Of a stretch of DNA of 64,000 bases, positions 26,356 through 62,751 are shown piece by piece. Each line of letters starts with the position of its first letter. Position 1 is the first letter of the stretch. The DNA comes from a bacterium (GTDB taxonomy: Bacteria > Zhuqueibacterota > QNDG01 > JAFGCO01): NCBI GenBank assembly GCA_016932575.1, contig JAFGCO010000065.1, forward strand, positions 62,001-126,000, read 5' to 3'. A program made the position numbers and the translations under genes. The notes under the pieces were generated by a model that was given only the letters and a program-made list of their open reading frames with translations, made no database searches and had not been told where the DNA came from.

Positions 26356-26372
26356 ATCAGGGGAATCCTGAT
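26356..26372 (-). promoter_or_regulatory. 17-bp palindromic element upstream of degQ (copy A)
   Basis: The sequence is ATCAGGGGAATCCTGAT, with 6-bp arms ATCAGG/CCTGAT. It lies 74 nt before the degQ start and 185 nt after the previous stop. On the minus strand it is followed by TGAT and then, 28 nt on, by a -10-like TATAAA (26322-26327). It is one of nine related copies in the window, all ahead of stress genes, and is therefore a candidate activator site. Confidence 0.65.
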
Positions 26373-28548: not shown

Positions 28549-28742
28549 AAAATCGGTTCTTTTCCTCCTTTCTCGATTGAGAGCCGAGCCTTTGCGATTA
28601 TCAATATTAAAAGCCACTGCGGTTGTTCTACATGGTTCGAAAAATTACAATAATCGTATCAACCCATCAATCACGAACGTTGAGATGTTAAAAATTTGTT
28701 TCATATCCAATGAGAGTGTATGGATTCTTTTCAGCAATTACT

Positions 28743-28759
28743 ATCGGGAGAATCCTGAT
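28743..28759 (-). promoter_or_regulatory. 17-bp palindromic element upstream of treT (copy C)
   Basis: The sequence is ATCGGGAGAATCCTGAT. It lies 195 nt before the preferred treT start (126 nt before the longest frame) and 110 nt after the previous stop. A TACACT (28715-28720) lies 22 nt further toward the gene. This copy belongs to the subgroup with CCGAT instead of CCTGAT on the gene-facing side. Confidence 0.55.
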
Positions 28760-35423: not shown

Positions 35424-35440
35424 ATCGGGATAATCCTGAA
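35424..35440 (-). promoter_or_regulatory. 17-bp palindromic element upstream of superoxide reductase (copy D)
   Basis: The sequence is ATCGGGATAATCCTGAA. It lies 95 nt before the superoxide reductase start and 202 nt after the hemerythrin stop. A TATCAT (35396-35401) lies 22 nt further toward the gene, the same spacing as in copy C. Confidence 0.6.
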
Positions 35441-41440: not shown

Positions 41441-41499
41441 GTTTTCCACCTCCAGTTTTTGTTGGTTATTCATGTCTTATTAAAATTAACGGCATTACG

Positions 41500-42026: not shown

Positions 42027-42043
42027 ATCAGGCAAATCCTGAA
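42027..42043 (-). promoter_or_regulatory. 17-bp palindromic element upstream of hsp20 (copy F)
   Basis: The sequence is ATCAGGCAAATCCTGAA. It lies 99 nt before the hsp20 start and 56 nt after the ligA stop. On the minus strand it is followed by TGAT and, 26 nt on, by TATAAA (41995-42000). The match to the other copies is strong. Confidence 0.65.
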
Positions 42044-42099: not shown

Positions 42100-44154
42100 T
42101 TACTTCAGCAGTTTCTTAAAATCCGATTCATCCAGAATTTCAACACCTTCTTCTTTGGCTTTGTCAAGTTTGCTGCCCGGATCTTCTCCGGCAACTACAT
42201 AATCCGTCTGTCCGCTCACACTGGAAGCGGCCCGGCCGCCCAGGGATTCCACAGCCTGTTGGGCTTTCTTGCGTGTATACCTGGAAAGTGCTCCGGTAAA
42301 CACAAAGGTTTTGCCGGATAATGTTTTTTTGGAGGGTTGTGAAACCGGCTTGACATGCACACCGAGCTTTTCAAACCGCTTCAGTATTTTCTGATTCTCT
42401 TTTTCCTGAAAAAAATGAACAATACTCTCCGCAATTTCGGGTTCGATTTCATCGATACGCTCAAGATCACTCACAGAAGCCTGAGCCAGCGAGTCCAGAT
42501 CACCGAAAGCACGGGCTGCCACGCGGGCAATATGCTCACCCACATGACGGATACCCAGGGCGCATAAAAAGATATCCAGAGAAAGGGTCTTGTTTTCATG
42601 GATCGCGTCAAACAGTTTTTGTGCGGATTTTTTGGCGAATCCCTCAAGGGATTCAAACTCTTCCACGGATAGTGTATATAAATCCGGCAGGCTATGCACC
42701 ATACCCCGTTCCACCAGCTGCTGAGCCACTTTATCTCCCAATGTATCAATATTCACGGCAGACCGGGATGCATAATGCTCAAGCCGTCCCTTGAGCTGGG
42801 CTTTGCATGACAAGCCGGCCGGACAAAGGGTATAGGCCCCTTCACGGACCAGTTTCGTCTGACAAACGGGGCATTTCGCAGGCATGGAAAAATGCTTGGT
42901 TCGTTTTTTCCCGGGCTCCTTGATTCGGGAATGAATTTCCGGGATCACATCTCCTGCCCGTATCACCCGTACCTTGTCCTCAGGCCGCACATCTTTCTTT
43001 TGTACTTCCTCTTCATTATGCAGGGTGGCACGGCTGACCGTCACACCGCCTACATGAACCGGTTCCAATAAGGCAACCGGAGTTAAAATGCCGGTGCGCC
43101 CCACCTGAACCACAATGTCTTTCAGCCGGGTTACTTCTTTTTTGGGGGGAAATTTCCAGGCCATCGCCCATCTGGGGCTGCACTGACGCTTACCCAGGGT
43201 ATTTCTGCCCTGCAGATGATTCAATTTAATGACAATCCCGTCGATTTCAAAGTCCAGATCCTCCCGCTGATCACTGAGTTTTTGCCTGTAATCTTCAATT
43301 TCATCAAATGTCGACCCATGCTGATTCAAGTTGTGAGTCCGGAGTCCCCACTCCTGCAGTCTGTTTAATTTATCCCAGTGGGATGCAAACTGACCATCTT
43401 CGATCCGCAGCACTTCATAAAAGAAAATCGTCAGAGGCTTATCCGCCACCTGCCGGGAATCAAGCTGACGGACAATACCTGCAACTGCATTCCTTGGATT
43501 GGCGAACGAGGCCTGGTTTTCCTCCACCCGTCTGCGGTAGACATCCTGAAAACCGGATTTGGACAGCAGCACTTCACCGCGTACCGCAATAAAGGAAGGC
43601 AGGTTTACGTCTGATTGCAGCCGGAGCGGAAGGGTTTGAATGGTTTTGATATTTTTCGTAATATCTTCACCTGTCCGGCCGTCGCCCCGGGTGGTGTCTC
43701 TCATAAATTCTCCTTGCTCATAAACGACTTCTATGGACAATCCGTCCCATTTGGGTTCCAGGACGTACAAAGGTTTTCCCCAGTCTCCGGATGCCTGAAT
43801 ATGCCGGTGAAAATCCCGGATTTTCTCGTTCTCCAGGGCTGAATCCAGGCTCAGCATAATGGATTCATGTTTCACTTTCTTCAGAGCATCCACGGGTACT
43901 GTCCCGATCCTTTGGGTGGGAGAACTCTCCGAAGCCAGGTCGGGAAATTCGGATTCCAGTTCCTGCAGACGGTGAAACAGCCGGTCGAATGCCGCATCCG
44001 ATATCCGGGGATTATTTTTGATATAATACTGCACATTGTGATATTCGACCGCTTCTTCGAGCTCATGCATCTGATTTTCGGCTTCTTTTCTGGAAAGAGA
44101 CTCCGGGGGTTCAAATTTTGCAGGAGGATTCCCGATGTATGGATTTTCCGCCAT
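42100..44154 (-). CDS. ligA: NAD-dependent DNA ligase
   Basis: It seals nicks in DNA using NAD. The protein is 684 residues from the ATG at 44154, which has AAGGTG upstream (the TTG at 44172 is less likely). The N-terminal Ia domain is EYHNVQYYIKNNPRISDAAFD. The adenylation Lys is in LEPKWDGLS; most housekeeping LigA enzymes have K-x-D-G with a small hydrophobic residue, and here it is Trp. It also has RGDGRTGEDIT, the zinc finger CPVC/CPAGLSC, helix-hairpin-helix repeats and a C-terminal BRCT domain (TFVFTGALSRYTRKKA). It is 30 nt from polX, which suggests a repair operon. Confidence 0.95.
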   Translation of the reverse strand: MAENPYIGNPPAKFEPPESLSRKEAENQMHELEEAVEYHNVQYYIKNNPRISDAAFDRLFHRLQELESEFPDLASESSPTQRIGTVPVDALKKVKHESIMLSLDSALENEKIRDFHRHIQASGDWGKPLYVLEPKWDGLSIEVVYEQGEFMRDTTRGDGRTGEDITKNIKTIQTLPLRLQSDVNLPSFIAVRGEVLLSKSGFQDVYRRRVEENQASFANPRNAVAGIVRQLDSRQVADKPLTIFFYEVLRIEDGQFASHWDKLNRLQEWGLRTHNLNQHGSTFDEIEDYRQKLSDQREDLDFEIDGIVIKLNHLQGRNTLGKRQCSPRWAMAWKFPPKKEVTRLKDIVVQVGRTGILTPVALLEPVHVGGVTVSRATLHNEEEVQKKDVRPEDKVRVIRAGDVIPEIHSRIKEPGKKRTKHFSMPAKCPVCQTKLVREGAYTLCPAGLSCKAQLKGRLEHYASRSAVNIDTLGDKVAQQLVERGMVHSLPDLYTLSVEEFESLEGFAKKSAQKLFDAIHENKTLSLDIFLCALGIRHVGEHIARVAARAFGDLDSLAQASVSDLERIDEIEPEIAESIVHFFQEKENQKILKRFEKLGVHVKPVSQPSKKTLSGKTFVFTGALSRYTRKKAQQAVESLGGRAASSVSGQTDYVVAGEDPGSKLDKAKEEGVEILDESDFKKLLK

Positions 44155-44184
44155 ATTAACACACCTTATCAAATACTTTCATTT

Positions 44185-45912
44185 TCAATCCCTTTTCAAC
44201 AGCTTTTTCACATTTCTCCACGATCGTGTATTCAGAACATCCTCCGCAGTCAGCCAGGCACGCCGGGCCTGGGCAACCCCCCATTTCATATGATTCAGTC
44301 CGTTCATGCTATGTGCATCCGTGGAAATGGTCAGTTTTATGCCCATTTCCCCGGCCATTTTGGCATGTACATCGGAGAGATCCAGCCGGTCCGGCTGTGC
44401 ATTGATCTCAATAAAACAATTCCGTTCTTTCACGGCTTCTAGGATTTTTTCAAAATCCATGTCGATCGGATCCCGTTTATTGATGATCCGGCCGAAAGGA
44501 TGGGCCAGAATATGGACATGTGGATTATCCAGAGCCCGGATGATGCGTTCGGTCTGTTCTTTCCTGGGAAGATCCCGGTAATAATGCGTACTGGCGACAA
44601 CCACATCCAGTTTCTCAAGCACGTCATCTGGCAGATCCAGCTTACCGTTTTTCAGAATATCCACTTCAACGCCCTTCAGGACATGAATACCGCCTAATTG
44701 TTCATTCACCTGATCAATATCCTCCATGTGCCTCCGGAGCCGGTCCGCATCCAGGCCATTGGCCACGGAGACCCGCTTGGAATGATCGGTAATGGCCAGA
44801 TAATTATATCCCTTTTCTTTGGCCGCCTTGGCCATATCTTCGATAGTATCTTTGCCGTCCGACGCTTTGGAGTGGCATTGCAGGTCACCCTGCATGTCTT
44901 CCAGGGTAATCAATTCAGGCAGTTCCCCTTTTTGGGTGGCTTCGATTTCCCCCCGGTTTTCCCGCAGTTCCGGCGGAATCCATTGAAGACCCAAAATCTC
45001 ATAAACGGAGGCTTCGGTCTCACCGGCCATGGATTTATCACCGCGAAATACACCGTATTCATTGATTTTCAAATTCTCTTTCTTTGCCATTTTTCGAAGG
45101 GACACATTATGATCTTTTGATCCGGTAAAATATACCATAGCCGCGCCGTAGCTTGATTTTTCAAACACGCGCAGATCCACCTGAAAGCCGCTGCGCAGCC
45201 GGACGCTGGTTTTGGCTTCGCCTTTGGCAACAACCTCTTTTACATCCTCATATTCCGCGAAACGTTCCATAACCGGTGTGCCTTTGCGGCGGGTCACCAG
45301 AATATCCAGATCACCCACTGTCTCTTTCCGGCGGCGATAGCTACCCGCCACTTCCACTTCCCTCACACCCTCGATTTCGCGAAGCATTTTTATCAGCGGC
45401 TCGACCACTTGTTCGGCCTCGATCAGAAGAAATCGTTTTTCTCCGCCGGCTGACTGCCATCGTTCAACCGACTGAACAATTTTATCCTCCGTCTTTTCAC
45501 CAAATCCTTCCAGCTCCCGGATTTTGTGATTCAAGGCCGCTTTTTTTAATGCGCCCAGACTGTCGATGCCCAGTTCATGATACAATTTTTTTACGCGCTT
45601 GGGTCCCATCTCCGGCAGTTGCATCAGGTCAATGAGTTCTCCGGGGACTTCCTTTTCAAGTTTCTTGAGCTGGGGCAGATTTCCGCTCCGGACAATCGTC
45701 TCGATTTTTCCGGCCAGGTCTTTTCCGATCCCTGAAAGTGAGCTCAGGTCCTTGCCCTCATCCACCATATCACGAACATTCCTCGACAGCCCGGAAATCA
45801 TTTGGGCTGCCTGGCGGTAAGCCCGGATCCGGAAGGGATTTTCATTCTTGATGTCCAGCAGATCGGCGATACGGCTGAATATTTCAGCAATGTCTTTGTT
45901 TTGAACAGGCAT
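44185..45912 (-). CDS. polX: DNA polymerase X with PHP phosphoesterase domain
   Basis: A 575-residue family X polymerase. Helix-hairpin-helix repeats occupy about 1-130 (LSGIGKDLAGKIE, LPEMGPKRVKKL). The nucleotidyltransferase has AGSYRRRKETVGDLDILV, the catalytic Asp pair, and YFTGSKDHNVSLR. The C-terminal PHP domain (about 340-575) has DLQCHSKASDG, ITDHS and STDAH with His/Asp metal ligands, typical of bacterial PolX with 3'-5' exonuclease and AP-endonuclease activity. It probably fills gaps in base excision repair before LigA, encoded next door. The ATG at 45912 follows GGAAGTGAA. Confidence 0.95.
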   Translation of the reverse strand: MPVQNKDIAEIFSRIADLLDIKNENPFRIRAYRQAAQMISGLSRNVRDMVDEGKDLSSLSGIGKDLAGKIETIVRSGNLPQLKKLEKEVPGELIDLMQLPEMGPKRVKKLYHELGIDSLGALKKAALNHKIRELEGFGEKTEDKIVQSVERWQSAGGEKRFLLIEAEQVVEPLIKMLREIEGVREVEVAGSYRRRKETVGDLDILVTRRKGTPVMERFAEYEDVKEVVAKGEAKTSVRLRSGFQVDLRVFEKSSYGAAMVYFTGSKDHNVSLRKMAKKENLKINEYGVFRGDKSMAGETEASVYEILGLQWIPPELRENRGEIEATQKGELPELITLEDMQGDLQCHSKASDGKDTIEDMAKAAKEKGYNYLAITDHSKRVSVANGLDADRLRRHMEDIDQVNEQLGGIHVLKGVEVDILKNGKLDLPDDVLEKLDVVVASTHYYRDLPRKEQTERIIRALDNPHVHILAHPFGRIINKRDPIDMDFEKILEAVKERNCFIEINAQPDRLDLSDVHAKMAGEMGIKLTISTDAHSMNGLNHMKWGVAQARRAWLTAEDVLNTRSWRNVKKLLKRD

Positions 45913-45929
45913 CACTTCACTTCCATTCT

Positions 45930-46361
45930 TCAGGATTTTTGATATTTACCCATCAGTTCCGTGGATTCCAGTATCAGCCCCTGCATTTTACCAATCACAT
46001 CATGACTGGAAGCGCCCCTTTCCAGAGGCAATTCAGCAGTTAATGCATAGCATTTGAAAAAATACCGGTGAATGCCTGACGGCGGGCAGGGACCTATGTA
46101 CTTTACTTCGCGTTGACTGTTGACTCCCTGAACACCGGGCGTGTAATTCACTGATATCTCATGGATAACCGGAATATTGAAAACCACCCAATGCACAAAC
46201 GGTCTGCCGGGCGCATCCGGATCCTCCATAATCAATACAAGGGTTTTCGCATTTTCAGGCACATCATGGAAAATAAGAGGCGGATTGACATTCTCTCCCT
46301 GACAGGTAAACCGGCGGGGAATCATTCCTCCGGATTCAAATGCATCGCTTGTCAGTTTCAT
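45930..46361 (-). CDS. PEBP-family (YbhB/YbcL) protein
   Basis: A 143-residue phosphatidylethanolamine-binding-like protein. It has FTCQGENVNPPLIFHDVPENAK (given in part: CQGENVNPPL), the conserved MEDPDAPGRPFVHWVVFNI and CPPSGIHRYFFKCYAL. No signal peptide is present. It ends 17 nt before polX, so it appears to be the first gene of the PEBP-polX-ligA operon. The role of bacterial PEBP proteins is poorly known. Start 46361 is decided by AAAGGAG. Confidence 0.92.
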   Translation of the reverse strand: MKLTSDAFESGGMIPRRFTCQGENVNPPLIFHDVPENAKTLVLIMEDPDAPGRPFVHWVVFNIPVIHEISVNYTPGVQGVNSQREVKYIGPCPPSGIHRYFFKCYALTAELPLERGASSHDVIGKMQGLILESTELMGKYQKS

Positions 46362-46416
46362 CACTGGTTACTCCTTTTGGATAATCGTATTATTGCATCA
46401 GACTCTTCACAATCAA

Positions 46417-47629: not shown

Positions 47630-49183
47630 TTACTGCAGATCCCCCGATTCCAATCGTGCGGCCGAAAGACCATCACTCCGTTTCAAATGTTTTTCCACTT
47701 CGAACAGTTCGGCGTCCATCCCGATCGATGCAGCAGCTGATAACCGTCCCCCGGAATAATACCCGATTAAAAACTCGCCCTTCCGGATGTCTCCCAGCAC
47801 GGCTGTGCGGTCAAACTGCGGGGCATTTCCGATATATTTTAAAGACTGTCCGTATTGCCGGGTCCAGAAGAACGGCACTTCATTGTAATTATCTTCGGCA
47901 CCCAACATGGACAAAGCAGCGTGTTTTCCCTGGCGCTGGGCTTCCACCCAATGCTCGAACCGATGCGGTTCCCCGGTAACCGGGTCCGGAATCCGCGCGA
48001 TGTCTCCTGCCGCAAAAATTTCAGGATGATGCGTTTGCAAACGTCCGTCCACCAGTACCTCCCCGTTTTCCAGCAGACCGGTTCCTTTCAGATAATCGAC
48101 TGCCGGATCGATGCCCAATCCTTCGATCACCAGCTCCACCGGAAGCAGAGTGCCGTCGGACAATTCCGCTTCACGGACATATCCCATTTTATCTCCATGA
48201 TATTCCTTGACTGTATGACCCAGGTGGAAACGCACACCCCGGCTTTCATGCTGACTGAGCAGATATTTTCCCACTGCTTCACCGAATACCGGAGCTAAAA
48301 ATACTTTCTCAGGAGCCACCAAATGAACCCGGACACCCGCATCACGCAGGGAGGCAGCGGCTTCCAGGCCGATAAAACCGGCTCCGACGATCAGCACCTG
48401 TTTCACCTTTTTCAATGCAGATCTTATTTTCCTTCCGTCATCCCAGCTGCGCAGAGTGACCACATTGTTCAGGTCTTCCCCCGGAATACCCGGTTTCCGG
48501 GGTATTCCTCCGGTGGCAAGAAGACATTGCGTATAAATAAAAGATTCCCCCTGACCGGCATAGGCTTTTCTTTTACTGATATCGATCTCGTGCACCATAC
48601 AGCCGGTCATGACTTCGATCTCGAGATCCTCATAGAATTCTTGGCTTCTCAGCAGCATGTTTTCATCGGTTTTTTGTCCGGATAAATAGGGTTTGGATAA
48701 CAAGGTCCGGTCGTAGGGCAGATCTTTTTCCCGGGTCAGCATTTGAATTTTTCCGGCAAATCCCTGTCGGCGAAACGTTTCTGCGGCGGACTGTGCGGCC
48801 GCCCCTGCTCCGACGATGAGTATCACCCGGGGTTCCGGACCTTCCGGTTTGGATATTGCAGGTTCTTTTTTGGCCCGAATGAAAACAGCCCCTTTGTCTA
48901 CACGCGTTTCATAAACAGGCAGCCCATCCAGCGCAGGCGGTGAGATCGGCTGTCCATGCTGCAGATCGAACCGGGCATTATGCCAGGGACAAACCAGTTC
49001 ATGATCCGTAATAAATCCTTCGTTCAAGGGAGCTCCATGATGAGGACATTCATTCCCGACCGCAACGACATCATTGTCCTGTCGCAACAGGAAAATTTCA
49101 TGGTCATCCACCTTGATGACAACAGGTTGGTTGTTCTGTAAGTCCGCCAACTCTGCCACTCGTCGCCACGCTGATTTGTTCAT
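47630..49183 (-). CDS. Rieske-domain FAD/NAD(P)-dependent oxidoreductase
   Basis: A 517-residue two-part protein. Residues about 5-105 form a Rieske [2Fe-2S] domain with CPHHGAPL and CPWHNARFD as cluster ligands. The rest is a class-I flavoprotein reductase with two nucleotide-binding loops (VIVGAGAAAQSAAETF-like region reading ILIVGAGAAAQSAAE, and VLIVGAGFIGLEAAASL) and the FAD-binding FAAGDIARIPD. The layout is that of AIFM3-like or nitrite/ferredoxin reductase-like enzymes. It probably passes electrons from NAD(P)H to the adjacent ferredoxin. The ATG at 49183 follows GGAG; a GTG at 49192 is less likely. Confidence 0.92.
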   Translation of the reverse strand: MNKSAWRRVAELADLQNNQPVVIKVDDHEIFLLRQDNDVVAVGNECPHHGAPLNEGFITDHELVCPWHNARFDLQHGQPISPPALDGLPVYETRVDKGAVFIRAKKEPAISKPEGPEPRVILIVGAGAAAQSAAETFRRQGFAGKIQMLTREKDLPYDRTLLSKPYLSGQKTDENMLLRSQEFYEDLEIEVMTGCMVHEIDISKRKAYAGQGESFIYTQCLLATGGIPRKPGIPGEDLNNVVTLRSWDDGRKIRSALKKVKQVLIVGAGFIGLEAAASLRDAGVRVHLVAPEKVFLAPVFGEAVGKYLLSQHESRGVRFHLGHTVKEYHGDKMGYVREAELSDGTLLPVELVIEGLGIDPAVDYLKGTGLLENGEVLVDGRLQTHHPEIFAAGDIARIPDPVTGEPHRFEHWVEAQRQGKHAALSMLGAEDNYNEVPFFWTRQYGQSLKYIGNAPQFDRTAVLGDIRKGEFLIGYYSGGRLSAAASIGMDAELFEVEKHLKRSDGLSAARLESGDLQ

Positions 49184-49240
49184 AGAATTCACTCCGTTAT
49201 TTTGGTTGTACTGGAGATAATCGCCCGTCGTTTGTCCCTG

Positions 49241-49483
49241 CTATTCCAGAATTTCATAACGAATAATTTCTACAGGGCAGCCTTCAGCCGCTTCTTCCAC
49301 ACAGGATTCCAGATCTTCCGGCAACAGGCCTTCCCCTTCATCATTTTCTGAGCGATATGCTTCTGTTATCCGCGACAATCCATCTTCCGGACTTTCCTCA
49401 AACACATCAGGACAGGATTCCCAGCAGACCTGACAACTCGTGCATTCCTCCCGATCAATGGTCACCTTGAGTTTCTCAGCCAT
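49241..49483 (-). CDS. ferredoxin with one [4Fe-4S] cluster
   Basis: An 80-residue, strongly acidic protein. Cluster ligands are in CTSCQVCWESCPDVF and the later Cys in EGCPVEIIRY. It carries electrons, probably to or from the Rieske/FAD enzyme that follows 57 nt downstream. Start 49483 is decided by AAGGAG; the open frame runs to 49510. A 17-bp palindrome lies 125 nt upstream. Confidence 0.92.
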   Translation of the reverse strand: MAEKLKVTIDREECTSCQVCWESCPDVFEESPEDGLSRITEAYRSENDEGEGLLPEDLESCVEEAAEGCPVEIIRYEILE

Positions 49484-49607
49484 CACAATCTCCTTATAAT
49501 TTATAATCAAATATTAACGCTTCATGAACTCTGGTTCCGAGACTTTTTATCGATTAAATATCTCACTCACAACCATTACATGGTAAGTTTTGCAATGAAG
49601 AATCTCA

Positions 49608-49624
49608 ATCAGGAACTTTCTGAT
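49608..49624 (-). promoter_or_regulatory. 17-bp palindromic element upstream of ferredoxin operon (copy J)
   Basis: The sequence is ATCAGGAACTTTCTGAT. It lies 125 nt before the ferredoxin start and 153 nt after the site-2 protease stop. It is followed by TGAG and, 27 nt on, by TGTAAT (49575-49580). This copy is more divergent in the centre but keeps both outer arms. Confidence 0.55.
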
Positions 49625-49777: not shown

Positions 49778-50908
49778 TCACGACAAATCAAAATCCATTT
49801 TTAATGAAAGCACGTTCATGATATCACGCAAAGCAATGATGCCTACCAGTTTCCCGTTCCTGGTGACCATTAAGCGGCTCAGACTGTTTTTCTTCATTTT
49901 ATGAAGTCCTTGCATCGCATCATCATCCGGGCCGATGGTATTGTTCTCATGACACATTTCCACGATAGACTGAATGTTCGCATTTTTTCTTTCGTTTTCA
50001 GGAATCTGTTTAATCTGTTTTAAATGAACACACCCCAGCAATTCTCCATTTTCGACCACTGGATACATTTTATGGTGGTATTTATATACAATTTGATGGA
50101 TTAAGTCATCCACAGTAGTATCGGGATTGACTGTAACCGGTTCATCATTCATAAAATCCCGGACTTTTTCGCCTTCCAGCGATTTTCGTAGAATTACCTG
50201 TTTATAAGACATTTGCGAAGCTGATCTGAGGAAAAATCCGATCATGATCCACCAGATACCCGAAACCAGATTTCCTCCCAGGGCATTCAGGAAACCCAGA
50301 AAAATGAGGAACCAGCCGAATCCGTTACCGATCCGGTAGGCGATGCGCGTGGCCTGTCGGATATCCTTTTTCCAGGCCCACAGAGCCGCCCGGAAAATAC
50401 GGCCTCCGTCCAGAGGAAAAGCGGGAAGCAGATTAAAACCTGCTAAAATCAGATTAATCATGCCCAGATACCGGATGACACCTGAAACCGCGGAGGAGGG
50501 TAACGATCGACCCAGGCCGTAATATATTCCAAAAAATAAGAGGCCTAATACAATACTGGACACGGGGCCCGCCACTGCCATCAGCAATTCTGTTTTGGGA
50601 TCCTGAGGCTGTTCATCCATCTCTGCAATGCCGCCGAAAATAAACAGCGTAATGCCTTTCATCGGCATACCGCGTTTTCTTGCAATATAGGAATGACAGA
50701 ATTCATGAAACACAATGGAAAAAAATAATCCCACGGCTCCGAAAGCTCCCATGATCCAGTAAGTGCTTAAAGACAGATTGTCGTATTGATTCGGAAAATA
50801 TCCCTTCGCAAGCGTCCAGGTGACCAGAAAACCCAGTATCAGCCAGCTCAGGTCAATCTTGACTCGAAATCCGAACAATCGGAAAAGTGTAATACCTCGT
50901 TCATTCAT
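49778..50908 (-). CDS. site-2 protease (M50) with C-terminal CBS pair
   Basis: A 376-residue intramembrane metalloprotease. It has six hydrophobic segments, the zinc motif HEFCHSYIA, and the second ligand in LLPAFPLDGGRIF with its Asp. A CBS pair follows at about 245-370 (FMNDEPVTVNPDTTVDDLI; GKLVGIALRDIM). The layout matches mycobacterial Rip3 (Rv2625c) and Rip-like enzymes that control membrane-bound regulators. It lies 20 nt after usp, and with the CBS gene upstream forms a three-gene operon. The target is unknown. Confidence 0.93.
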   Translation of the reverse strand: MNERGITLFRLFGFRVKIDLSWLILGFLVTWTLAKGYFPNQYDNLSLSTYWIMGAFGAVGLFFSIVFHEFCHSYIARKRGMPMKGITLFIFGGIAEMDEQPQDPKTELLMAVAGPVSSIVLGLLFFGIYYGLGRSLPSSAVSGVIRYLGMINLILAGFNLLPAFPLDGGRIFRAALWAWKKDIRQATRIAYRIGNGFGWFLIFLGFLNALGGNLVSGIWWIMIGFFLRSASQMSYKQVILRKSLEGEKVRDFMNDEPVTVNPDTTVDDLIHQIVYKYHHKMYPVVENGELLGCVHLKQIKQIPENERKNANIQSIVEMCHENNTIGPDDDAMQGLHKMKKNSLSRLMVTRNGKLVGIIALRDIMNVLSLKMDFDLS

Positions 50909-50928
50909 ATTTTTTTCCTTTTATTGTA

Positions 50929-51414
50929 TCATTTTGAATAGCCCTGTCTACGTTCTGAAATACGAATAATTAAAACGGGCGGTCCGGCATGCCGGATTAC
51001 CCCTTCCGCGACAGAACCCATCAAAAGCCATTTCAATCCGGTTTTTCCGTGTGTCGCGATGATAATGAGATCGACATTTTCTTCCTCGGCTGCTTCGGTG
51101 ATTTTATCTTCCGCTCTTCCGGTATCAATCCGTGTTTCCACATCGAACTCAGCATTCTTCAGATATTTTTCAACCGTCTGTTCCATTGATTTCTGAGCCG
51201 ATCGGTTCAATTCTTTTTGATACAAACTGACATTGAAATCCATACTGGGAGCATTGTATCCGATATTTCCACCCTGAAAAACAGGAGTGACCACATGAAT
51301 CAGAACCAGCGTCGCCTGAAAATGCAATGCCATGTCTTCGGCAGATTCCAGCGCTTTCAGGGAGTTTTCACTAAAATCCAACGGACATAAAATCTTTTTA
51401 AAAGGAAGCACCAT
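50929..51414 (-). CDS. universal stress protein, UspA family
   Basis: A 161-residue protein with one Usp domain. It has the start FKKILCPLDFSENSLKAL and the late ATP-binding pattern ATHGKTGLKWLLMGSVAEGVIRHAGPPV, given in part (G-x2-G-x9-G-S type: GLKWLLMGSVAEGVIRH). ATP-binding Usp proteins of this kind act in stress tolerance. It is the middle gene of a CBS-Usp-S2P operon. AAAGGAGGAGG directly precedes the start. Confidence 0.93.
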   Translation of the reverse strand: MVLPFKKILCPLDFSENSLKALESAEDMALHFQATLVLIHVVTPVFQGGNIGYNAPSMDFNVSLYQKELNRSAQKSMEQTVEKYLKNAEFDVETRIDTGRAEDKITEAAEEENVDLIIIATHGKTGLKWLLMGSVAEGVIRHAGPPVLIIRISERRQGYSK

Positions 51415-51447
51415 CCTCCTCCTTTATTTGGCTTCATAATCGGTGGA

Positions 51448-51816
51448 TTATGATTTCAGCCCGACATCTTTCCGCGCACAGATTCCCCGGATTTTATTAT
51501 TTCGATCCAGTACAATCAAATGCGACATTTTTTTTTCTTTCATCACTGTTTTTACCAGCTGTACGGATTGGTCGTCGTAAACGAACCGTATATTGGGATT
51601 CATCACATCACGTACTTTCAACTTTCTGAGCTTGTCCTTATGGATACCGTGACGCATCAATACATCTTTGGCAGACAGAATGCCGTATATATGATGATCA
51701 TTTTTGACCAGCATCACGCCTGTATTGTTGTGTTTCATACGCGATAATGCTTCAATCAAATGCATTTCTTCAGGGACAACCCGGACTTTCGAATTCATGA
51801 TTTCTTTGATTTTCAT
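51448..51816 (-). CDS. CBS-pair domain protein (Hrp1-like size)
   Basis: A 122-residue protein made up of two CBS motifs (MNSKVRVVPEEMHLIEALSR; VRDVMNPNIRFVYDDQSVQL). It is of the size of mycobacterial Hrp1 (Rv2626c), which is encoded next to Rip3 and induced by hypoxia, but sequence identity cannot be judged here. It is the first gene of the CBS-Usp-S2P operon, 33 nt from usp, with CAGGAG as ribosome site. A 17-bp palindrome lies 69 nt upstream. Confidence 0.88.
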   Translation of the reverse strand: MKIKEIMNSKVRVVPEEMHLIEALSRMKHNNTGVMLVKNDHHIYGILSAKDVLMRHGIHKDKLRKLKVRDVMNPNIRFVYDDQSVQLVKTVMKEKKMSHLIVLDRNNKIRGICARKDVGLKS

Positions 51817-51884: not shown

Positions 51885-51901
51885 ATCAGGGAAGCCCCCA
51901 T
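51885..51901 (-). promoter_or_regulatory. 17-bp palindromic element upstream of CBS-Usp-S2P operon (copy G)
   Basis: The sequence is ATCAGGGAAGCCCCCAT. It lies 69 nt before the CBS start and 466 nt after the previous stop. On the minus strand TTTAAT (51853-51858) lies 26 nt further toward the gene. The gene-distal arm is degraded (CCCCAT), but the gene-facing arm CCTGATTGAT is intact. Confidence 0.55.
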
Positions 51902-52367: not shown

Positions 52368-52967
52368 TTACGACATCGAGATCCAATCACGCACAAATCG
52401 TGTTTGCAACTTTTCAACCTCATCCGTATCGATTTCCAAATCACCAGCCAGTTGCAAAATACTTTTTCCGGCACTCAATCCATAAATCACTTTTTGTTCT
52501 GTTTCAGACAATTCACTTTTTAATAAACATTTTTCTGTAAGTATTCTCTGGTAATCCTTGAATACAGTCATCTGAGCTTCTTGGCCCAATACAATATAAC
52601 CCTTCAGGACCAACTGAATGGCATTTCGGATATCTTGAAAAGCGTTGCTCTTGATCAGATATCCTGATGCCCCCGCACCCAGCATGCCCAGTATAAACTG
52701 CCTTTCACAATATATGGAAAGTCCGATGATATGCATGTCCGGAAATTGCTGCTTGATCAGTTGTGTGGTTGCCATGCCGTTCAATTCAGGCATATTGATA
52801 TCCATGAGAATCACATCCGGTGCCAAAATCTGTGCTTTCTGCCGTACGGATATGCCGTTCGGTGCTTCTCCGACGACCTCCATATCCGGATGGTTTGAAA
52901 AAAGGCTTCTCAACCCTTCCCGGAGAATCGCATGATCATCTGCCAATAAAATTTTTGTTTTCATCAT
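52368..52967 (-). CDS. NarL/FixJ-type response regulator
   Basis: A 199-residue regulator. The receiver (about 5-120) has LADDHAILREGL, the phosphoacceptor in VILMDINMPELNGMAT and the Lys in YLIKSN. The C-terminal 60 residues are a LuxR-type helix-turn-helix that keeps the pattern LSETEQKVIYGLSAGKS and an I-x-x-x-x-V recognition region but is more divergent than usual. It lies 165 nt downstream of a NarX-like PAS kinase, its probable partner. The most symmetrical copy of the 17-bp palindrome lies 139 nt upstream, which suggests autoregulation. There are two adjacent ATGs (52967, 52964). Confidence 0.88.
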   Translation of the reverse strand: MMKTKILLADDHAILREGLRSLFSNHPDMEVVGEAPNGISVRQKAQILAPDVILMDINMPELNGMATTQLIKQQFPDMHIIGLSIYCERQFILGMLGAGASGYLIKSNAFQDIRNAIQLVLKGYIVLGQEAQMTVFKDYQRILTEKCLLKSELSETEQKVIYGLSAGKSILQLAGDLEIDTDEVEKLQTRFVRDWISMS

Positions 52968-53105
52968 ACATCAAAACTGTCTGCTGTTAATTGATAAATG
53001 AATAAGAGTCATCAACCATCCCGCAATTATTCAGTAAATAAATAGCACCCTTTTCCCGTTTACTCATAACAATTATAAGTAAGGGAATGTATCGGTATAA
53101 AATCA

Positions 53106-53122
53106 ATCAGGGAAACCCTGAT
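53106..53122 (-). promoter_or_regulatory. 17-bp palindromic element upstream of NarL-type regulator (copy B)
   Basis: The sequence is ATCAGGGAAACCCTGAT, a perfect 7-bp palindrome with an AAA centre and the best copy in the window. It lies 139 nt before the regulator start and 10 nt after the kinase stop, so a terminator function cannot be excluded here. TATAAT (53072-53077) lies 28 nt further toward the gene, the same spacing as in copy A. Confidence 0.65.
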
Positions 53123-53132
53123 TTTACTTCAT

Positions 53133-56100
53133 TTATTCACCCAGATCAAGCGGTGCCTTCAGCCGGATGTATGTGCCCTTGTTTTTTTCTGAAATCAACT
53201 TGAACTGCCCCTTCATGAATTCGATCCTTTCCTGGATATTGAATAATCCGAATCCGGATGTCGTTTCCATATCTGCTTTCAACTGGTCCGGATTAAAACC
53301 GCATCCGTCATCCTTGACCTCGATCTGTATCTTTGCTCCTGCTTTCATCGCCCGGATATGGACATTTTCAGCGTCTGCATGCTTGACAACATTCATGAGA
53401 AGTTCATGGACCGCCTGAAATAGCATGTTGCGCATATCCTCACTGACGGGCTTTTCTGTATGATCATGGGTAAAATGACAGGTCAGTCCATATTCTTTTT
53501 CAAATTGTTCGCTGAGCCACTCCAGTGCCGGGATCAGCCCCAGCTCGTAAAGTACCGGAGGGCTGATCTGAAACGTCATGGATCTCAATTCCCGTATGGT
53601 TTCTTCCAGATGATTGTGAACCTCTTCCATGACAGGTTTCTGAGATTCGGAGGAATCGATGTTTATCGCCTGATCGAGTTTCATATTGGACAGCACGAGC
53701 ATCTGTATAATGCTGTCGTGCAGTCCGGCTGCAATCTCCCTTCGCTGGCGCTCTTCTGCCCGTATCAATTCTGCTGTCAGCGAACGCAGTTTATCCTGAA
53801 ATTCACTTCGCTGTCTGATCTGCTTCTTTAATTCCCGGTTCGTTTTCCGGAGTTCTTTTGTCCTTTCCTGAACCTGCCGTTCGAGCTGCTGCTTGGCCTC
53901 GCGCAATGCATGTTCATTGAGAACGCGTTCTGTAATATCATGCTCAATTGTGGCAACCGCATAAACCGTATTGTCTATATCCCGGAGCGGGGAAAAACTA
54001 ATGGCCACATATATACTTCGGTTGTCCTTTCGAATCCGATTGGTTTCGTAATGTCGAATATGCTCGCCTTTTTTTGTGCGCTCTATTAAACGGGCCTCTT
54101 CGTCGCGTTTATCTTCCGGTAAAATCCGGTCGATCATATGGCCGATCATTTCCTCGGTTGCATATCCATAAATCCGTTCGGCTCCGGTATTCCAGGCCGT
54201 AATGATGCTATTCATGTCACGTACCACAATGGCATCCTGAGATTCAGCCACGATTTCAGCAAGCAGCCGTTGATTTTCCACAGCCTGTTTCTGATCAGTG
54301 ATATCCTGAACCATGCCCAGCATGCGTACGGCCAGGCGATTTTGATCGCGGATGACATTGCCGGTCTGGCGTAGCCATCGAATGCTGCCATCCATACATA
54401 TCACCCGGTGTTCCACATCATAAAGACTGTCTTCTTCTATACAGGCATTAATGGCCTGAGTCACCCGTCTGCGGTCCTCCGGATGAATCAGCCGCAGAAA
54501 AGAACGGTAAGACCGGTCGATCCTGCTTTGTTTCATGCAGAAAAGCTGTTCCAGGGTATTCGAGTATTCCACCTTGCCGGATCGGATATCCCAGTCCCAG
54601 TTGCCGATACCGGCCAGCTGCTGAGCCAGACAATATCGTTGTTCGCTTTCCTGAAGTTTTTCCTGCCGCTGGCGCCTATCTGTAATATCATGCCAGGTGA
54701 CCACTGCACCATTCATTTCGAAGGGATCCTCAATCGGGGAGGCGGAGACTAGAACATAACGCATCTGATTCTCTGTATTTTTAAAGAGGCAAAGTTCATC
54801 CTTAATCATCTCTCCGGAAAGCGCGCGACGGTATATCACTTTATCTCTTGGACATTCTGCCGAGCTTTCCGGAGGGATCAGCAGGCTGTTCAGTGCTTTT
54901 TCCTCCTGAATGGAAACCGGTTCGCGTCCGAGGGCCGCATGGGCAGCCGGATTGGCTTTGATAATTTTTCCCCCGGGATTGAAGACCAATATGGGATCCG
55001 TCAGAGAGCCGATGACTGCTTCCAGCCTGGCAGTCTGGTTCTTCAGGTCCCGGCTCAGAGACTGGATATCATCGATAAACCGCTCTCGTTCTGCAATGGC
55101 CCGTTGATCTTCGGTAACATCGACCAGGGAATAAACCAGGCCGGTCACTTCGCCGATGCTGTCTTTCACCGGAACAAGCGACCAGTCCCAGTAGGTCATG
55201 CCCCGGTCCGGATCCCCCGGAAACTCGAAGGGCTTGGCCTCTGTCATAAACGGTTTTCCTGTTTTTCGTACTTGCTTAAAAATAGCCTGGTTTTCTTTAT
55301 CCGGGAAAATGTCGAAATGATTATTTCCGATTAACTCCTCTTCGCTGTAGCCGCATCCCCGGGCATAGGCACTGTTGACCATGACAAAATTAAATTCCCG
55401 GTCCAGATAAGCCAGATGGGTGTTGGTGTTGTCCATGACCACTTCGAGCAGATCCCGCTCTTTTTTAAGATCCCTCTCCGCCCGTCGCCTGGGTGTTACA
55501 TCCCGGGCCACACTCAGCACGGTCTCTACCCGACCGTCCTGATCAAATTCCGGAATCAAGCTGCAATAAAATATGCGTTTTTCTCCGGATTCAGGAAATT
55601 CAAATTCCACGGTATCCGGTTTTTCGCTTTTTATGACCTTGTCAATCCTTTTCTCCCACAGATCGCACAGGAAATCAGGTAAATCCAGATTGCGGCTTGT
55701 TTTTCCAATTAATTTCTCGGGAGGCATCCCGGTAAGACCGCTGATGGTCTGATTGATGTACACAAGGTGAAAATCCCGGTCAAACCGGGCAATAATATCC
55801 GGAGAATGATCGGCCAGTGTCTGGAGGCGTTTCTCACTTCCGAGTATCGCCTGTTCCGCCTTTTTCTGCCGGCGGATATCAATACCAATGCCGATCCGGG
55901 TATCATCGTTCAGTTTGATATTGGTCCACTCGGAGGGAACTGTATCTCCTGTTTTGGTGGTCACATTGAATTCCCGCCACCCGGGATGAAGCGAATCCAT
56001 AAAGTTGCTGACTTTTTTACGGTAGGCGGGATCCGGGTAGACCTTGCTCATGAAATCGCCCTGATTGGCATCCTTATTTGTCCAGCCAAGCACATCCCGG

Positions 56101-56633
56101 GCATGTTTGTTGAGTGTAAACCGCTCGAGTTTCGGATCATACAACACAAGCATAACGGGGATGGTATCCACGAGGGACTGAAGCAGATTACGTTCCCGGC
56201 TCAGCGCCTCTTCCACCTGCTTGCGCTCGGTGATGTCCAAATGGATCCCCCTCGTGCGGATCACCTCCCCCTGTTCATTACGGTAAATACGGCCGGAAGC
56301 GACCAGCCACCGGATATCGCCGTCTTCCCGTACGATGCGGAATTCATCGCGAAACTCATTACCGGATTGAACGACTTTTTCGAGATGTTTCCGGACGCGG
56401 ACCCGGTCCGCTTCATGGATATATTCGAAAAAGGTCTCACCGGTGACGGATTCGCCTTCGGGATCACGGCCCAGCATCTCGTACAGCAGGAGATTCCACT
56501 TGGTTCGTCCAGTCCGGTAATCCCGGGCCCATATACCCAGTCGAGCAGTTTCAACAGCGAGCTGATAACTGTCTTCAGTGCCGGGCAGTTCATTTTTCAC
56601 TGTCTTTTGTTTATTCATACCTCTTCTATCCAA
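53133..56633 (-). CDS. multi-PAS sensor kinase, NarX-type (HisKA_3)
   Basis: An 1166-residue kinase with no clear membrane segment, so probably cytoplasmic. It has about seven PAS domains in a row (for example starting near 25, 145, 270, 390, 535, 670 and 800, each ending with a PAC motif such as ARDVTPRRRAE or VQDITDQKQAV). The dimerisation region has RAEERQRREIAAGLHDSIIQ with the phosphoacceptor His near 967, and the ATPase has HELLMNVVKHADAE and GFGLFNIQERIE. It pairs with the NarL-type regulator downstream. The ATG at 56618 and a TTG at 56633 are both possible starts. Confidence 0.92.
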   Translation of the reverse strand: MDRRGMNKQKTVKNELPGTEDSYQLAVETARLGIWARDYRTGRTKWNLLLYEMLGRDPEGESVTGETFFEYIHEADRVRVRKHLEKVVQSGNEFRDEFRIVREDGDIRWLVASGRIYRNEQGEVIRTRGIHLDITERKQVEEALSRERNLLQSLVDTIPVMLVLYDPKLERFTLNKHARDVLGWTNKDANQGDFMSKVYPDPAYRKKVSNFMDSLHPGWREFNVTTKTGDTVPSEWTNIKLNDDTRIGIGIDIRRQKKAEQAILGSEKRLQTLADHSPDIIARFDRDFHLVYINQTISGLTGMPPEKLIGKTSRNLDLPDFLCDLWEKRIDKVIKSEKPDTVEFEFPESGEKRIFYCSLIPEFDQDGRVETVLSVARDVTPRRRAERDLKKERDLLEVVMDNTNTHLAYLDREFNFVMVNSAYARGCGYSEEELIGNNHFDIFPDKENQAIFKQVRKTGKPFMTEAKPFEFPGDPDRGMTYWDWSLVPVKDSIGEVTGLVYSLVDVTEDQRAIAERERFIDDIQSLSRDLKNQTARLEAVIGSLTDPILVFNPGGKIIKANPAAHAALGREPVSIQEEKALNSLLIPPESSAECPRDKVIYRRALSGEMIKDELCLFKNTENQMRYVLVSASPIEDPFEMNGAVVTWHDITDRRQRQEKLQESEQRYCLAQQLAGIGNWDWDIRSGKVEYSNTLEQLFCMKQSRIDRSYRSFLRLIHPEDRRRVTQAINACIEEDSLYDVEHRVICMDGSIRWLRQTGNVIRDQNRLAVRMLGMVQDITDQKQAVENQRLLAEIVAESQDAIVVRDMNSIITAWNTGAERIYGYATEEMIGHMIDRILPEDKRDEEARLIERTKKGEHIRHYETNRIRKDNRSIYVAISFSPLRDIDNTVYAVATIEHDITERVLNEHALREAKQQLERQVQERTKELRKTNRELKKQIRQRSEFQDKLRSLTAELIRAEERQRREIAAGLHDSIIQMLVLSNMKLDQAINIDSSESQKPVMEEVHNHLEETIRELRSMTFQISPPVLYELGLIPALEWLSEQFEKEYGLTCHFTHDHTEKPVSEDMRNMLFQAVHELLMNVVKHADAENVHIRAMKAGAKIQIEVKDDGCGFNPDQLKADMETTSGFGLFNIQERIEFMKGQFKLISEKNKGTYIRLKAPLDLGE

Positions 56634-59423: not shown

Positions 59424-60158
59424 TTACTTACCTTCTTCATATTCCACATACAGTCCGTTCACGATATCCACCACGCCAATCAGGTGCGCAATATCTTCTT
59501 CAATGGCATGTTTTGCCCAAAGGTTTGTTGTTTTACCGGTTAATGTGACGACACCCTCCTCCACCATCACGCGCACATTGTACTGAAACGGATACCGGTT
59601 GTTCAATATTTCATGAACCATATCCTTGATATTGGCATCGGTGTAGCGTTCAACCGAAGGGGTTATTTTTATCTCATTGATGATTCCCTTGACGCCTTTC
59701 TGCCAGGATGCGGCAGTTTGAGCCATCATTTTTTCCCGGTAGAAATCAACCTCACCGGTTAATTTCACAATGCCGTTCGCCACAGTTACCCCGATATCAT
59801 CAGGATCCTTAATTGTGTAAATGTAATTTAACTCGTCAATAATATTATTTTTAATAATCTCATCCGGTAAAAGTGCGGCATTGACTATGACCTGATTGGA
59901 AATTTTATTGACATTTGGAAATTGAGAAGCGATTTCAAAGACTCTCAATTTGTCGTACATCAGGTCCACAGTTCCTTCAAGCTCAACCGTTCCTTCTTTC
60001 ATTACCGACGCGTTGACTGTGTCGTATCCTTCATTCCCCAAAGCCGCTTCAATTTTATTGATGGATATTTTATCCCCGGCGCCGATTACAGCCTGAGTTA
60101 TAATAAACGAAAGCGCCAGAATGCTGATGATCAAATATATTTTTGTGCGATACCACAT
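59424..60158 (-). CDS. exported protein with three BON domains
   Basis: A 244-residue protein with a signal peptide (IYLIISILALSFIITQAVIG) and three BON-like modules at about 33-95, 100-165 and 172-240 (GTVELEGTVDLMYDKLRVFE; NGIVKLTGEVDFYREKMMAQ; EGVVTLTGKTTNLWAKHAIE). It is like the six-BON protein at 39.9-41.4 kb, though the domains are more divergent. It is probably periplasmic or surface-associated. AAGGAGG precedes the start, and a 17-bp palindrome lies 82 nt upstream. Confidence 0.9.
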   Translation of the reverse strand: MWYRTKIYLIISILALSFIITQAVIGAGDKISINKIEAALGNEGYDTVNASVMKEGTVELEGTVDLMYDKLRVFEIASQFPNVNKISNQVIVNAALLPDEIIKNNIIDELNYIYTIKDPDDIGVTVANGIVKLTGEVDFYREKMMAQTAASWQKGVKGIINEIKITPSVERYTDANIKDMVHEILNNRYPFQYNVRVMVEEGVVTLTGKTTNLWAKHAIEEDIAHLIGVVDIVNGLYVEYEEGK

Positions 60159-60239: not shown

Positions 60240-60256
60240 ATCGGGAAAATCCTGAA
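60240..60256 (-). promoter_or_regulatory. 17-bp palindromic element upstream of three-BON gene (copy H)
   Basis: The sequence is ATCGGGAAAATCCTGAA. It lies 82 nt before the BON start and 82 nt after the AarF kinase stop. TATAAA (60209-60214) lies 25 nt further toward the gene. It belongs to the CCGAT subgroup with copies C and D. Confidence 0.65.
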
Positions 60257-60338: not shown

Positions 60339-62024
60339 TTATAAGTGGCCTGATCGCAGTATGTTGAACACAAGCCACAAACCCATGATTCCCGCCAGTA
60401 AAAAACCAATCAATCCGAATATGGGGAGATCCCACAGTTTGGGCCCTTTGTCTATTTGAACAACCAGTGAAGATCCAACCACAAGCGAGGCAATGATCAT
60501 ACTGAAAGACAGCCGGTTGGCAAAGCGGTCCATTTCATTCAGTATATCATCGATACGCATGTGGTGCAAATTGATGCCCATTTGTCCCCATCTGGCTTTT
60601 TTAAGAATCTGAGTTAACATGCGGGGCGCCACAACCAGCAGATCTGTATAATCTTCCCACATTAACGTCATATTTCGGAAGAATTTTTCCGCTTCCGCCC
60701 GTCCGATCATCGTACTGGTAAAATAGGATTTAGCGGTTGAGATAATATCGAATTTCGGATCGAGTTTCTGCGCGATACTCTCCATGACCATTTGTGCTTT
60801 GCCCATCAGGTAAAGGCTCCGGGGAAACTGAATACGGTTGTCCCGGATCACTTTGACCAGGTCGTTGAAAAAATTTCCGAATTTCAGCATATGCAGCGGT
60901 ACAGCATGATATCTCGCCAGTAAATCAGAGACATCAATTCGCAGGGTCTCCCGGTCAACATCGGTTTTCAAACGATTCAAATTGATCAGTGTATGAACGA
61001 TCATCAAGGCGTCATTGCGGATGATCCCCCGAAGCAATTCTCCGATCTCACTGACAAGCTCATCGTCCAGCCGACCCATCAGGCCGTAATCCAACGGCGC
61101 AATCCTTTGATCGGGAAGCACCAGCAGGTTGCTCGGGTGCGGATCTCCGTGGAAAAAGTGATATTCGAATATCTGTCTTAACACGAATAATGTTCCGTTT
61201 TTGGCAATCTGCACAGGATCAAGGCCCGACTTTTTCAGCGATTCCACCTGATCAATATAAATGCCTTCAATATATTCAAGCGTTAAAACTCTTTCCGTGG
61301 TACATTTCCAAAATACAGCGGGTACGTATACAGTCTCGTCGTCTGTAAAATTTGTCTTGAAACGGTGTATATTCCGGCCTTCCTGTATAAAATTCAATTC
61401 CTCGCTGATCCATTTTTTAAATTGTGAAACCAGGCCGGAAGGATCGAACACATGGCTTTCGGGTATGTATCGTTCAATAAGACCGGCCAGGTCTTTTAAA
61501 ATGGGAATATCCCGCTGGATGATTTCAATTATATCAGGCCGCATCACTTTAACCACCACTTCTTCACCGGATTGTGTACAGGCACGATGTACCTGGGCTA
61601 TAGATGCAGCTGCAACCGGCTCTTTATCATAAGACTTGAAAATGGTTCGGACAGACTGCCCCAGTTCCTCCTCGATAATACGGATACTTTCATCAGCCGG
61701 AAAGGGAGGCACTTTGTCCTGCAATTTTCGAAGTTCGCTGACATAGGCCACAGGCAGAAGGTCATAGCGGGTGCTGAGCATTTGTCCGAGTTTGATAAAA
61801 GTCGGCCCAAGCTCCTCCAGTGCCAGACGCACCCGTTCGGGCCGGGATTTATTTTGATGAGGCTCTTGTGCCCGCTTAAGGGATTTGGATCTGATTTTTT
61901 TTAATGCAATGTCCACATTCAGCTGATCAATCACATCCTCAAATCCATATTTGAGTAAAATTGAGATAATTTCACGGTATCTTCCAAGATGTTGAATGGA
62001 TTTTTTCAGATTAAATATGGACAT
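60339..62024 (-). CDS. ABC1/AarF/UbiB family atypical kinase
   Basis: A 561-residue protein of the UbiB family. It has the KxGQ motif in FIKLGQMLSTRYDLLP, the Ala-rich loop AAASIAQVHRA, the Lys in VVVKVMRPDI, and the catalytic HGDPHPSNLLV with DYGLMGRL as the metal-binding motif. The C-terminus has two membrane segments (about 500-520 and 533-555). In other bacteria members support ubiquinone synthesis; in anaerobes they may act on other lipids. Start 62024 (MSIFNLKKS) is the family-like start, while the open frame extends to 62069. Confidence 0.92.
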   Translation of the reverse strand: MSIFNLKKSIQHLGRYREIISILLKYGFEDVIDQLNVDIALKKIRSKSLKRAQEPHQNKSRPERVRLALEELGPTFIKLGQMLSTRYDLLPVAYVSELRKLQDKVPPFPADESIRIIEEELGQSVRTIFKSYDKEPVAAASIAQVHRACTQSGEEVVVKVMRPDIIEIIQRDIPILKDLAGLIERYIPESHVFDPSGLVSQFKKWISEELNFIQEGRNIHRFKTNFTDDETVYVPAVFWKCTTERVLTLEYIEGIYIDQVESLKKSGLDPVQIAKNGTLFVLRQIFEYHFFHGDPHPSNLLVLPDQRIAPLDYGLMGRLDDELVSEIGELLRGIIRNDALMIVHTLINLNRLKTDVDRETLRIDVSDLLARYHAVPLHMLKFGNFFNDLVKVIRDNRIQFPRSLYLMGKAQMVMESIAQKLDPKFDIISTAKSYFTSTMIGRAEAEKFFRNMTLMWEDYTDLLVVAPRMLTQILKKARWGQMGINLHHMRIDDILNEMDRFANRLSFSMIIASLVVGSSLVVQIDKGPKLWDLPIFGLIGFLLAGIMGLWLVFNILRSGHL

Positions 62025-62304
62025 GCATTTGACCTTCACAATTAAAAAGGGGATTGAAGAATACCGCACCCTTCTGACGACATATAAGAATGTACTCTGA
62101 TGAGCAACAGATACTGTTCATTCGCTCTTATTGTCAAGAAAATGAACCGGGATTCACCTCCCTACAAAAAAAACTCATACCGCTTCTTACATTTTAAGGA
62201 GGCTTCTCCCGATTCATTCATGGAAAATATCGAAATGTTTAAAAAAGACTGGCATATTACTTCATCTGGCTGAAATCAGAATTATGAATATATCCGAAAA
62301 TTTT

Positions 62305-62607
62305 TTATCCCTGTTTTTCCTGAGATTTCAACAATTTATCCAGCTTTTTATTGATCTCATCAATATCCTTCCGAGTCGCCAGATGCAGATTTTTTACAGT
62401 ATCTTCGATAATCTGATTCAATTTCTTATCAAAGTGGCTTTTTTCCTTTTCTGCCCGGTCCATTAGATCACGAACTGCTTTGGCGCTTTCGTCCTTGGAT
62501 ACCTTGCCCTTTTCCACCAGATCATTGATAATTTCTTCCGCCCGGTCTTTGGTCATGGAAAAAATACCCAATCCCAGATACAGTGTTTTTTCGAATAAAT
62601 CAGCCAT
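62305..62607 (-). CDS. phasin-like coiled-coil protein
   Basis: A 100-residue protein with an amphipathic N-terminal helix (FEKTLYLGLGIFSMTKDRAEE) followed by a long charged coiled coil (VRDLMDRAEKEKSHFDKKL; ATRKDIDEINKKLDKLL). This is the pattern of the small phasin-related proteins linked to polyhydroxyalkanoate or lipid surfaces and often to stress. No PHA synthase is in the window. AACGGAGG precedes the start, and a 17-bp palindrome lies 128 nt upstream. Confidence 0.82.
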   Translation of the reverse strand: MADLFEKTLYLGLGIFSMTKDRAEEIINDLVEKGKVSKDESAKAVRDLMDRAEKEKSHFDKKLNQIIEDTVKNLHLATRKDIDEINKKLDKLLKSQEKQG

Positions 62608-62734: not shown

Positions 62735-62751
62735 ATCAGGGATAACCTGAG
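62735..62751 (-). promoter_or_regulatory. 17-bp palindromic element upstream of phasin-like gene (copy I)
   Basis: The sequence is ATCAGGGATAACCTGAG. It lies 128 nt before the start and 36 nt after the Suf protein stop. TATAAT-like hexamers occur 19 and 36 nt further toward the gene, so the -10 spacing is less clear than in the other copies. Confidence 0.55.

Follow-up and report, generated by a model that had tools for sequence, protein, structure and literature searches.

Two-component systems that pair a NarL-family response regulator (RR) and a sensor kinase with a GGG/CCC-rich palindrome are known from Mycobacterium (DevR/DosR with DevS/DosT) and Streptomyces (OsdR with OsdK), where the regulons comprise Usp, heat-shock, and redox proteins, many of them encoded in a cluster around the system itself (PMC5069765). 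Here, we describe a similarly composed locus in a bacterium of a poorly studied phylum: a histidine kinase gene, an RR gene (RR1), and a palindromic element between them, located at positions 52368–56633 of a 64-kb stretch (hereafter the window) within the 151,835-bp contig C16 of a 4.41-Mb genome (G000). Our evidence throughout is comparative sequence analysis, and it indicates that the palindrome, which belongs to a promoter element of a stress-gene island, is most likely read not by the adjoining RR1 but by a second, intact regulator of the same island (RR2).

The OsdR consensus (AGGGCCGATCGGCCCT) differs from the element described here in both core and half-site spacing. Relative to DosR and OsdR, the kinase at our locus is of a many-PAS type, and the regulon adds trehalose enzymes, CBS and BON proteins, and a second regulator whose helix-turn-helix (HTH) is dead. 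The DosR/DevR regulon is marked by a 20-bp site and by the haem-GAF sensor of DevS/DosT; the core here is different, and Pfam detects no GAF domain in the kinase. NreABC of Staphylococcus is a PAS/NarL system whose regulator, NreC, has the site TAGGGN4CCCTA. It combines an oxygen-sensing kinase with a phosphorylated RR acting on a GC-rich palindrome (PMC5694512), but differs in its nitrate/nitrite regulon, its spacer, and the absence of an HTH-less partner. A different kind of parallel is Osp of Rhodobacter sphaeroides. This RR-like protein of a single domain inhibits the kinase CckA, and its own gene is switched on by the output regulator (PMC9430884). By analogy, Osp–CckA corresponds to the circuit that we propose for RR1, although the kinase and output families differ and RR1 keeps a degenerate C-terminal domain. 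We found no system in the literature that matches the motif in combination with Usp, HSP20, and NarL components.

A promoter element of three half-sites

The locus comprises the following features:

52368..52967, minus strand: RR1, response-regulator gene; receiver (active-site Asp and Lys kept) and degenerate HTH without the last helix
53072..53077, minus strand: −10-like TATAAT of the proposed RR1 promoter, 37 nt from the core centre
53107..53121, minus strand: palindrome core ahead of RR1 (full 51-bp element, 53095–53145)
53133..56633, minus strand: histidine kinase, soluble, multi-PAS, HisKA_3/HATPase_c

The kinase gene stops at 53133 and RR1 starts at 52967, both on the minus strand; the 165-bp gap that separates them contains the most symmetrical palindrome, a perfect 7+3+7 repeat at 53106–53122 (ATCAGGGAAACCCTGAT), just where the initial annotation of this DNA had placed it. 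Related sequences are strongly enriched: the window contains 43 copies of TCAGGGNANCCCTGA at ≤3 mismatches, where shuffled sequence gives 14.6 ± 4.2 and never more than 25, and TCAGGRNWNYCCYGA at ≤1 mismatch occurs 93 and 85 times on the two strands genome-wide, against 8 and 5 for the reversed control. A 51-bp weight matrix, trained on eight window sites and with its statistics based on sites from G000 only, returns 11 sites when applied to contig C16 (scores 28–47), where the best non-site reaches 16.5 and the reversed contig 10.8 at most; three of the 11 lay outside the training set (scores 38, 29, and 28). Every one of the 11 sits ahead of genes and on the minus strand, and together they span 51 kb. 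Nine fall inside the window, in agreement with the count given earlier.

In coding orientation, the full element reads TCAGG-N17-TCAGG(A/G)NNNNCCTGATTGA, such that an extra TCAGG half-site precedes that of the core by exactly 22 bp and a conserved TTGA follows 3′ of the core; the site is therefore an asymmetric array of three half-sites. At 9/11 sites, a −10-like hexamer starts 28–37 nt from the core centre; with this spacing the core lies near −40 to −50, the position of an activator. The extra half-site, the TTGA, and the hexamer had all gone unremarked in the initial annotation, which did, rightly, assign the palindrome to the RR1 promoter. In this bacterial stress-gene island, the palindromes constitute a genuine promoter element. 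Sigma-54-type −24/−12 promoters, sought between site and gene, gave no convincing candidate. A regulon extending beyond the island was considered and rejected: the remaining exact matches to the core, genome-wide, are without the 22-bp array, and one (C62) lies within a coding frame.

RR1, RR2, and the kinase

The two halves of RR1 have fared differently. Its receiver is well preserved (PF00072, 3.9e-23; D10, D11, D56, and K106 all present) within an intact frame of 199 codons, and with the phosphorylation residues in place RR1 is not simply a pseudogene. The C-terminal half has no PF00196 (GerE) match in Pfam even at E ≤ 5, and falls short of the four-helix LuxR-type domain. Alignment with 112 canonical homologues reveals the substitutions R156T (R in 110), S180D (S in 101), K182D (K/R in 91), T183E (T in 108), H187L (H in 105), and K194D (K/R in 108), and indicates that the protein terminates ahead of the last HTH helix. 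An AlphaFold model of RR1 (predicted local distance difference test score, pLDDT, 93.9; the underlying alignment includes canonical homologues) displays a normal receiver followed by three C-terminal helices and no fourth. Its best structural matches are LiaR (5hev), VraR (4gvp), and DesR (4ldz), which, unlike RR1, have a working DNA-binding domain with a fourth helix. RR1 is derived from the NarL/FixJ family, of which it is no longer a full member, and judged by these residues it makes an unconvincing DNA reader.

A better candidate is encoded in the same island:

C16 136059..136709 (outside the window; ~74.1 kb on the window scale): RR2, 216-aa NarL/LiaR-type regulator, 21 kb from RR1

RR2 is 42% identical to RR1 and retains both receiver (PF00072, 1.2e-29) and GerE domain (PF00196, 7.8e-20; 7.8e-20 to 6.9e-22 across RR2 and its orthologues). 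RR1 shares the helix-1 pattern HxIxRxGLRSL common to RR2 orthologues, which would fit docking of RR1 on the same kinase.

The kinase had been described as NarX-like with seven PAS domains. Pfam indeed finds many PAS domains (seven is compatible with the sequence), then HisKA_3 (PF07730, 2.1e-6) and HATPase_c (PF02518, 1.3e-14), the arrangement of NarX/NreB/DevS-type kinases, but no NarX-type sensor or HAMP domain, and there is no obvious membrane segment (maximum 19-residue hydropathy 1.05). The closest kin of this kinase, 41–42% identical over the catalytic end, are the kinases paired with RR2 orthologues. G000 yielded no other close HisKA_3 kinase; the one other similar kinase found there is 26% identical to it. 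In the islands of relatives (G041, G056, G064, G044, and L122), there is ahead of RR2 a HisKA_3-type kinase, likewise soluble and equipped with sensor domains. The controller of the palindromes is very probably a NarL-type two-component system, as the initial annotation had proposed, and the kinase beside the palindrome is probably the controller's kinase.

The element in related genomes

We searched 82 genomes of the phylum, some of them incomplete. Outside G000, the exact three-half-site array has only two copies, both on the G056 contig that carries an RR2 orthologue (54% identity), while a copy with one mismatch adjoins the RR2 orthologue of G041 (59% identity). The weight matrix places an element directly 3′ of the RR2 orthologues in G041, G056, G064, G044, and a relative represented by a Latescibacterota metagenome-assembled genome (MAG; L122, 55%), with scores of 14.7–32.8; none of 1.42 million control positions scores ≥14.7. 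These orthologues include members of other families of the phylum. Among 29 RR2 homologues in the phylum, the core lies ≤400 bp downstream in 12 at p < 0.01 (14 at p ≤ 0.011) and upstream in none. RR1-type genes with a degenerate C-terminus are rare: a profile search of the 82 genomes found only RR1 itself and one G044 protein, and neither single-sequence nor profile searches returned RR1 orthologues beyond this G044 partner, although more diverged HTH-less RRs may exist elsewhere in the genomes that gave no match. Taken with the ordinary HTH of RR2, this distribution makes intact RR2 the most likely reader of the palindromes. Adjacency to the best operator can, it follows, mark a target instead of the reader.

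Two kinds of gene found behind the element in relatives stand out. The first is a further HTH-less regulator. The element in G044 is followed by a 193-aa RR (L119:11171–11752) with a C-terminus degraded like that of RR1, sharing with it D180, D182, and a terminal W-x-x-M; its receiver is a pseudo-receiver, the phosphoacceptor Asp being replaced by His and, by alignment, the active-site Lys by Glu. In G064, the element precedes a 139-aa receiver-only RR (L118:327), and in Myxococcota and Acidobacteria MAGs (L125, L127) receiver-only RRs that adjoin canonical RRs have weaker sites ahead of them. The receivers of RR1, RR2, and the G044 and G064 partners form one clade (97/74) with long branches, in a tree built on few columns. 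With elements ahead of the G064 and G044 partners and at 53095–53145 ahead of RR1, the promoter logic would be Osp-like, if RR2 is what binds there.

The second is a structured RNA of ~68 nt, found behind canonical RR2-type genes in G033, G036, G037, G039, G040, and G050–G053. It has an outer stem, a hairpin, C-rich tracts, and in most cases a T-run, and RNAalifold identifies compensatory changes in the outer stem. The loci, all directly 3′ of canonical NarL-type RR genes, are:

L083:2264–2332
L084:1142–1209
L086:2325–2387
L087:2247–2317
L090:1168–1235
L096:2312–2379
L097:1311–1379
L098:933–1000
L099:620–683

The core palindrome lies 44–95 nt upstream of the RNA in most loci (not in G050), an arrangement that supports the RR2 family as reader. 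A covariance model detects the RNA in 19/82 genomes, at 1–3 copies each, and does not find it in G000. Copies on contigs other than that of the RR (G048, G049; 33 nt) have a weaker core upstream, as does the second G037 copy. The RNA has no Rfam match, nor did Rfam return any family for the window or the islands. In these relatives, it would add a GacA-Rsm-like layer to the system.

Two MAGs outside this series offer separate observations. In a gammaproteobacterial MAG, a NarL-type RR is separated from a gene cluster resembling those for pyrroloquinoline quinone biosynthesis by two element-like sites (L143:7624 and L143:7902), one of which has the 22-bp repeat. A Myxococcota MAG (L123:6010–7654) has two similar canonical RR2-type genes in tandem after one kinase, with a weak element-like site between them.

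The proposed circuit, its alternatives, and its operons

We propose, at a probability of about 0.6, that RR2 acts through an activator site with the palindrome at its core, that RR2 is phosphorylated by the window kinase, and that RR1 is a diverged paralogue which the system activates and which limits it. The soluble multi-PAS kinase (53133–56633) would probably phosphorylate RR2; phospho-RR2 would then occupy the full element, TCAGG-N17-TCAGG(A/G)NNNNCCTGATTGA, with its centre near −40 to −50, and switch on about 11 stress operons, that of RR1 included. Having kept its receiver and apparently lost DNA recognition, this RR2-family member could, as it accumulates, compete with RR2 for the kinase or pair unproductively with RR2, so that the response limits itself. 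Sequestration of a kinase by other RRs is documented (PMC10368727), and control of an HTH-less regulator by the operator of the system it belongs to suggests a self-limiting response, as with Osp and CckA. RR1 is accordingly a probable promoter target and feedback partner (kinase sink or decoy) of a kinase–RR2–RR1 circuit, in which binding by RR2, its pairing with the kinase, phosphotransfer, and the direction and manner in which RR1 acts are what we infer.

Several observations weigh against this proposal. In G000, RR2 is not adjacent to the kinase whereas RR1 is, the pairing being deduced from relatives. An HTH-less partner next to RR2 is absent in G041 and G056, and only some relatives carry one; that of G044 has no phosphoacceptor, such that one mechanism may not fit all. 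The RR1-type proteins sit on long branches compatible with either single or multiple origin. Lastly, the three-helix C-terminal domain of RR1 is still folded in the model, and might allow some DNA contact, perhaps with RR2.

This last point bears on a rather unlikely alternative, an RR1–RR2 heterodimer on DNA that positively tunes site choice, for example at the asymmetric array. Membership of both proteins in one receiver clade, the intact RR1 receiver with its folded C-terminus, and the presence of three half-sites would all suit such a complex, but the same array is present in G041 and G056, two genomes in which the search returned no RR1-type gene, and the receiver-only partners of G064 and L125 have no domain with which to contact DNA. 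We consider it distinctly unlikely that RR1 is a functionless relic heading for loss. Its long branch, its lost domain, and the relatives without an adjacent HTH-less partner agree with decay; however, the active-site residues and 199-codon frame have been kept, the gene has a well-formed promoter with an element, and HTH-less partners recur behind the element in other lineages.

The initial annotation took RR1 itself as the likely controller, binding the palindromes through a new kind of HTH and controlling its own gene, which is now decidedly improbable. RR1 does adjoin the most symmetrical site, has three predicted C-terminal helices, and retains its receiver active site; set against this are the missing GerE match, the replacement of DNA-contacting residues (several by acidic ones), and the loss of the last helix. 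The annotation had suggested checking related genomes for co-occurrence of regulator and motif, and named an element present in relatives without the regulator as evidence against its idea. That is the pattern observed, with the element conserved beside canonical regulators in genomes with no detectable RR1. The divergent HTH, read as fitting a new DNA target, is not needed to explain that target, since where RR1 was not found the element accompanies RR2 orthologues with an ordinary HTH. As reader of the palindrome, an unrelated transcription factor with its gene elsewhere is very improbable. RR2 is itself a putative reader, but the element lies directly 3′ of an RR2 gene in five further genomes, no sigma-54-type −24/−12 boxes were seen, and the core resembles NarL-family regulator sites.

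Beyond G000, we put somewhat short of even odds on an undescribed NarL-type two-component family, widespread in the phylum, with its operator right behind the regulator gene and driving either an HTH-dead second regulator (a self-limiting loop) or, in sister lineages, the new C-rich small RNA; G000 would add its 11-operon stress island. For a DosR-like stress island, the kinase–RR2–RR1 proposal offers a testable full circuit, from kinase, reader, and operator to regulon and likely feedback protein, and the recurrence of HTH-dead second regulators behind the operator suggests that self-limiting two-component responses have evolved by this route repeatedly.

The ten further elements on contig C16, all on the minus strand, precede these genes (window positions unless marked C16):

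26357..26371: HtrA/Deg-type protease (24747–26282)
28744..28758: TreT-like trehalose synthase (27328–28617) and a receiver-PAS protein
35425..35439: 101-aa protein (35024–35329), desulfoferrodoxin-like by eye only
42028..42042: HSP20 (41500–41928) and BON-repeat protein (39929–41473)
49609..49623: ferredoxin-like protein (49241–49510; by eye) and Rieske/pyridine-nucleotide reductase (47630–49192)
51886..51900: CBS-pair protein, Usp, and M50-CBS protease (together 49778–51816)
60241..60255: BON-domain protein (59424–60158)
62736..62750: 100-aa phasin-like protein (62305–62607; name by eye) and ABC1 kinase (60339–62069)
C16 135772 (outside the window): 3′ of RR2, ahead of a lipoprotein-like gene (name by eye)
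C16 139094 (outside the window; 77 kb on the window scale): Usp-like gene (by eye), upstream of msrB-like, PEBP-like, and RR2 genes

From the C16 139094 site, RR2 may itself belong to an element-controlled operon. A phasin-like/ABC1-kinase gene pair similar to that at 60339–62607 lies behind the G041 element in the island of that genome.

Two neighbouring loci deserve mention. Within the stress island, genes for a NAD-dependent DNA ligase and a PolX-type polymerase/PHP protein (42100–46364) are flanked by the element-controlled HSP20 gene and a PEBP-family gene. The receiver-PAS protein (26558–27331) directly downstream of the element-preceded TreT gene has no recognised output domain and is a possible third signalling member of the island.

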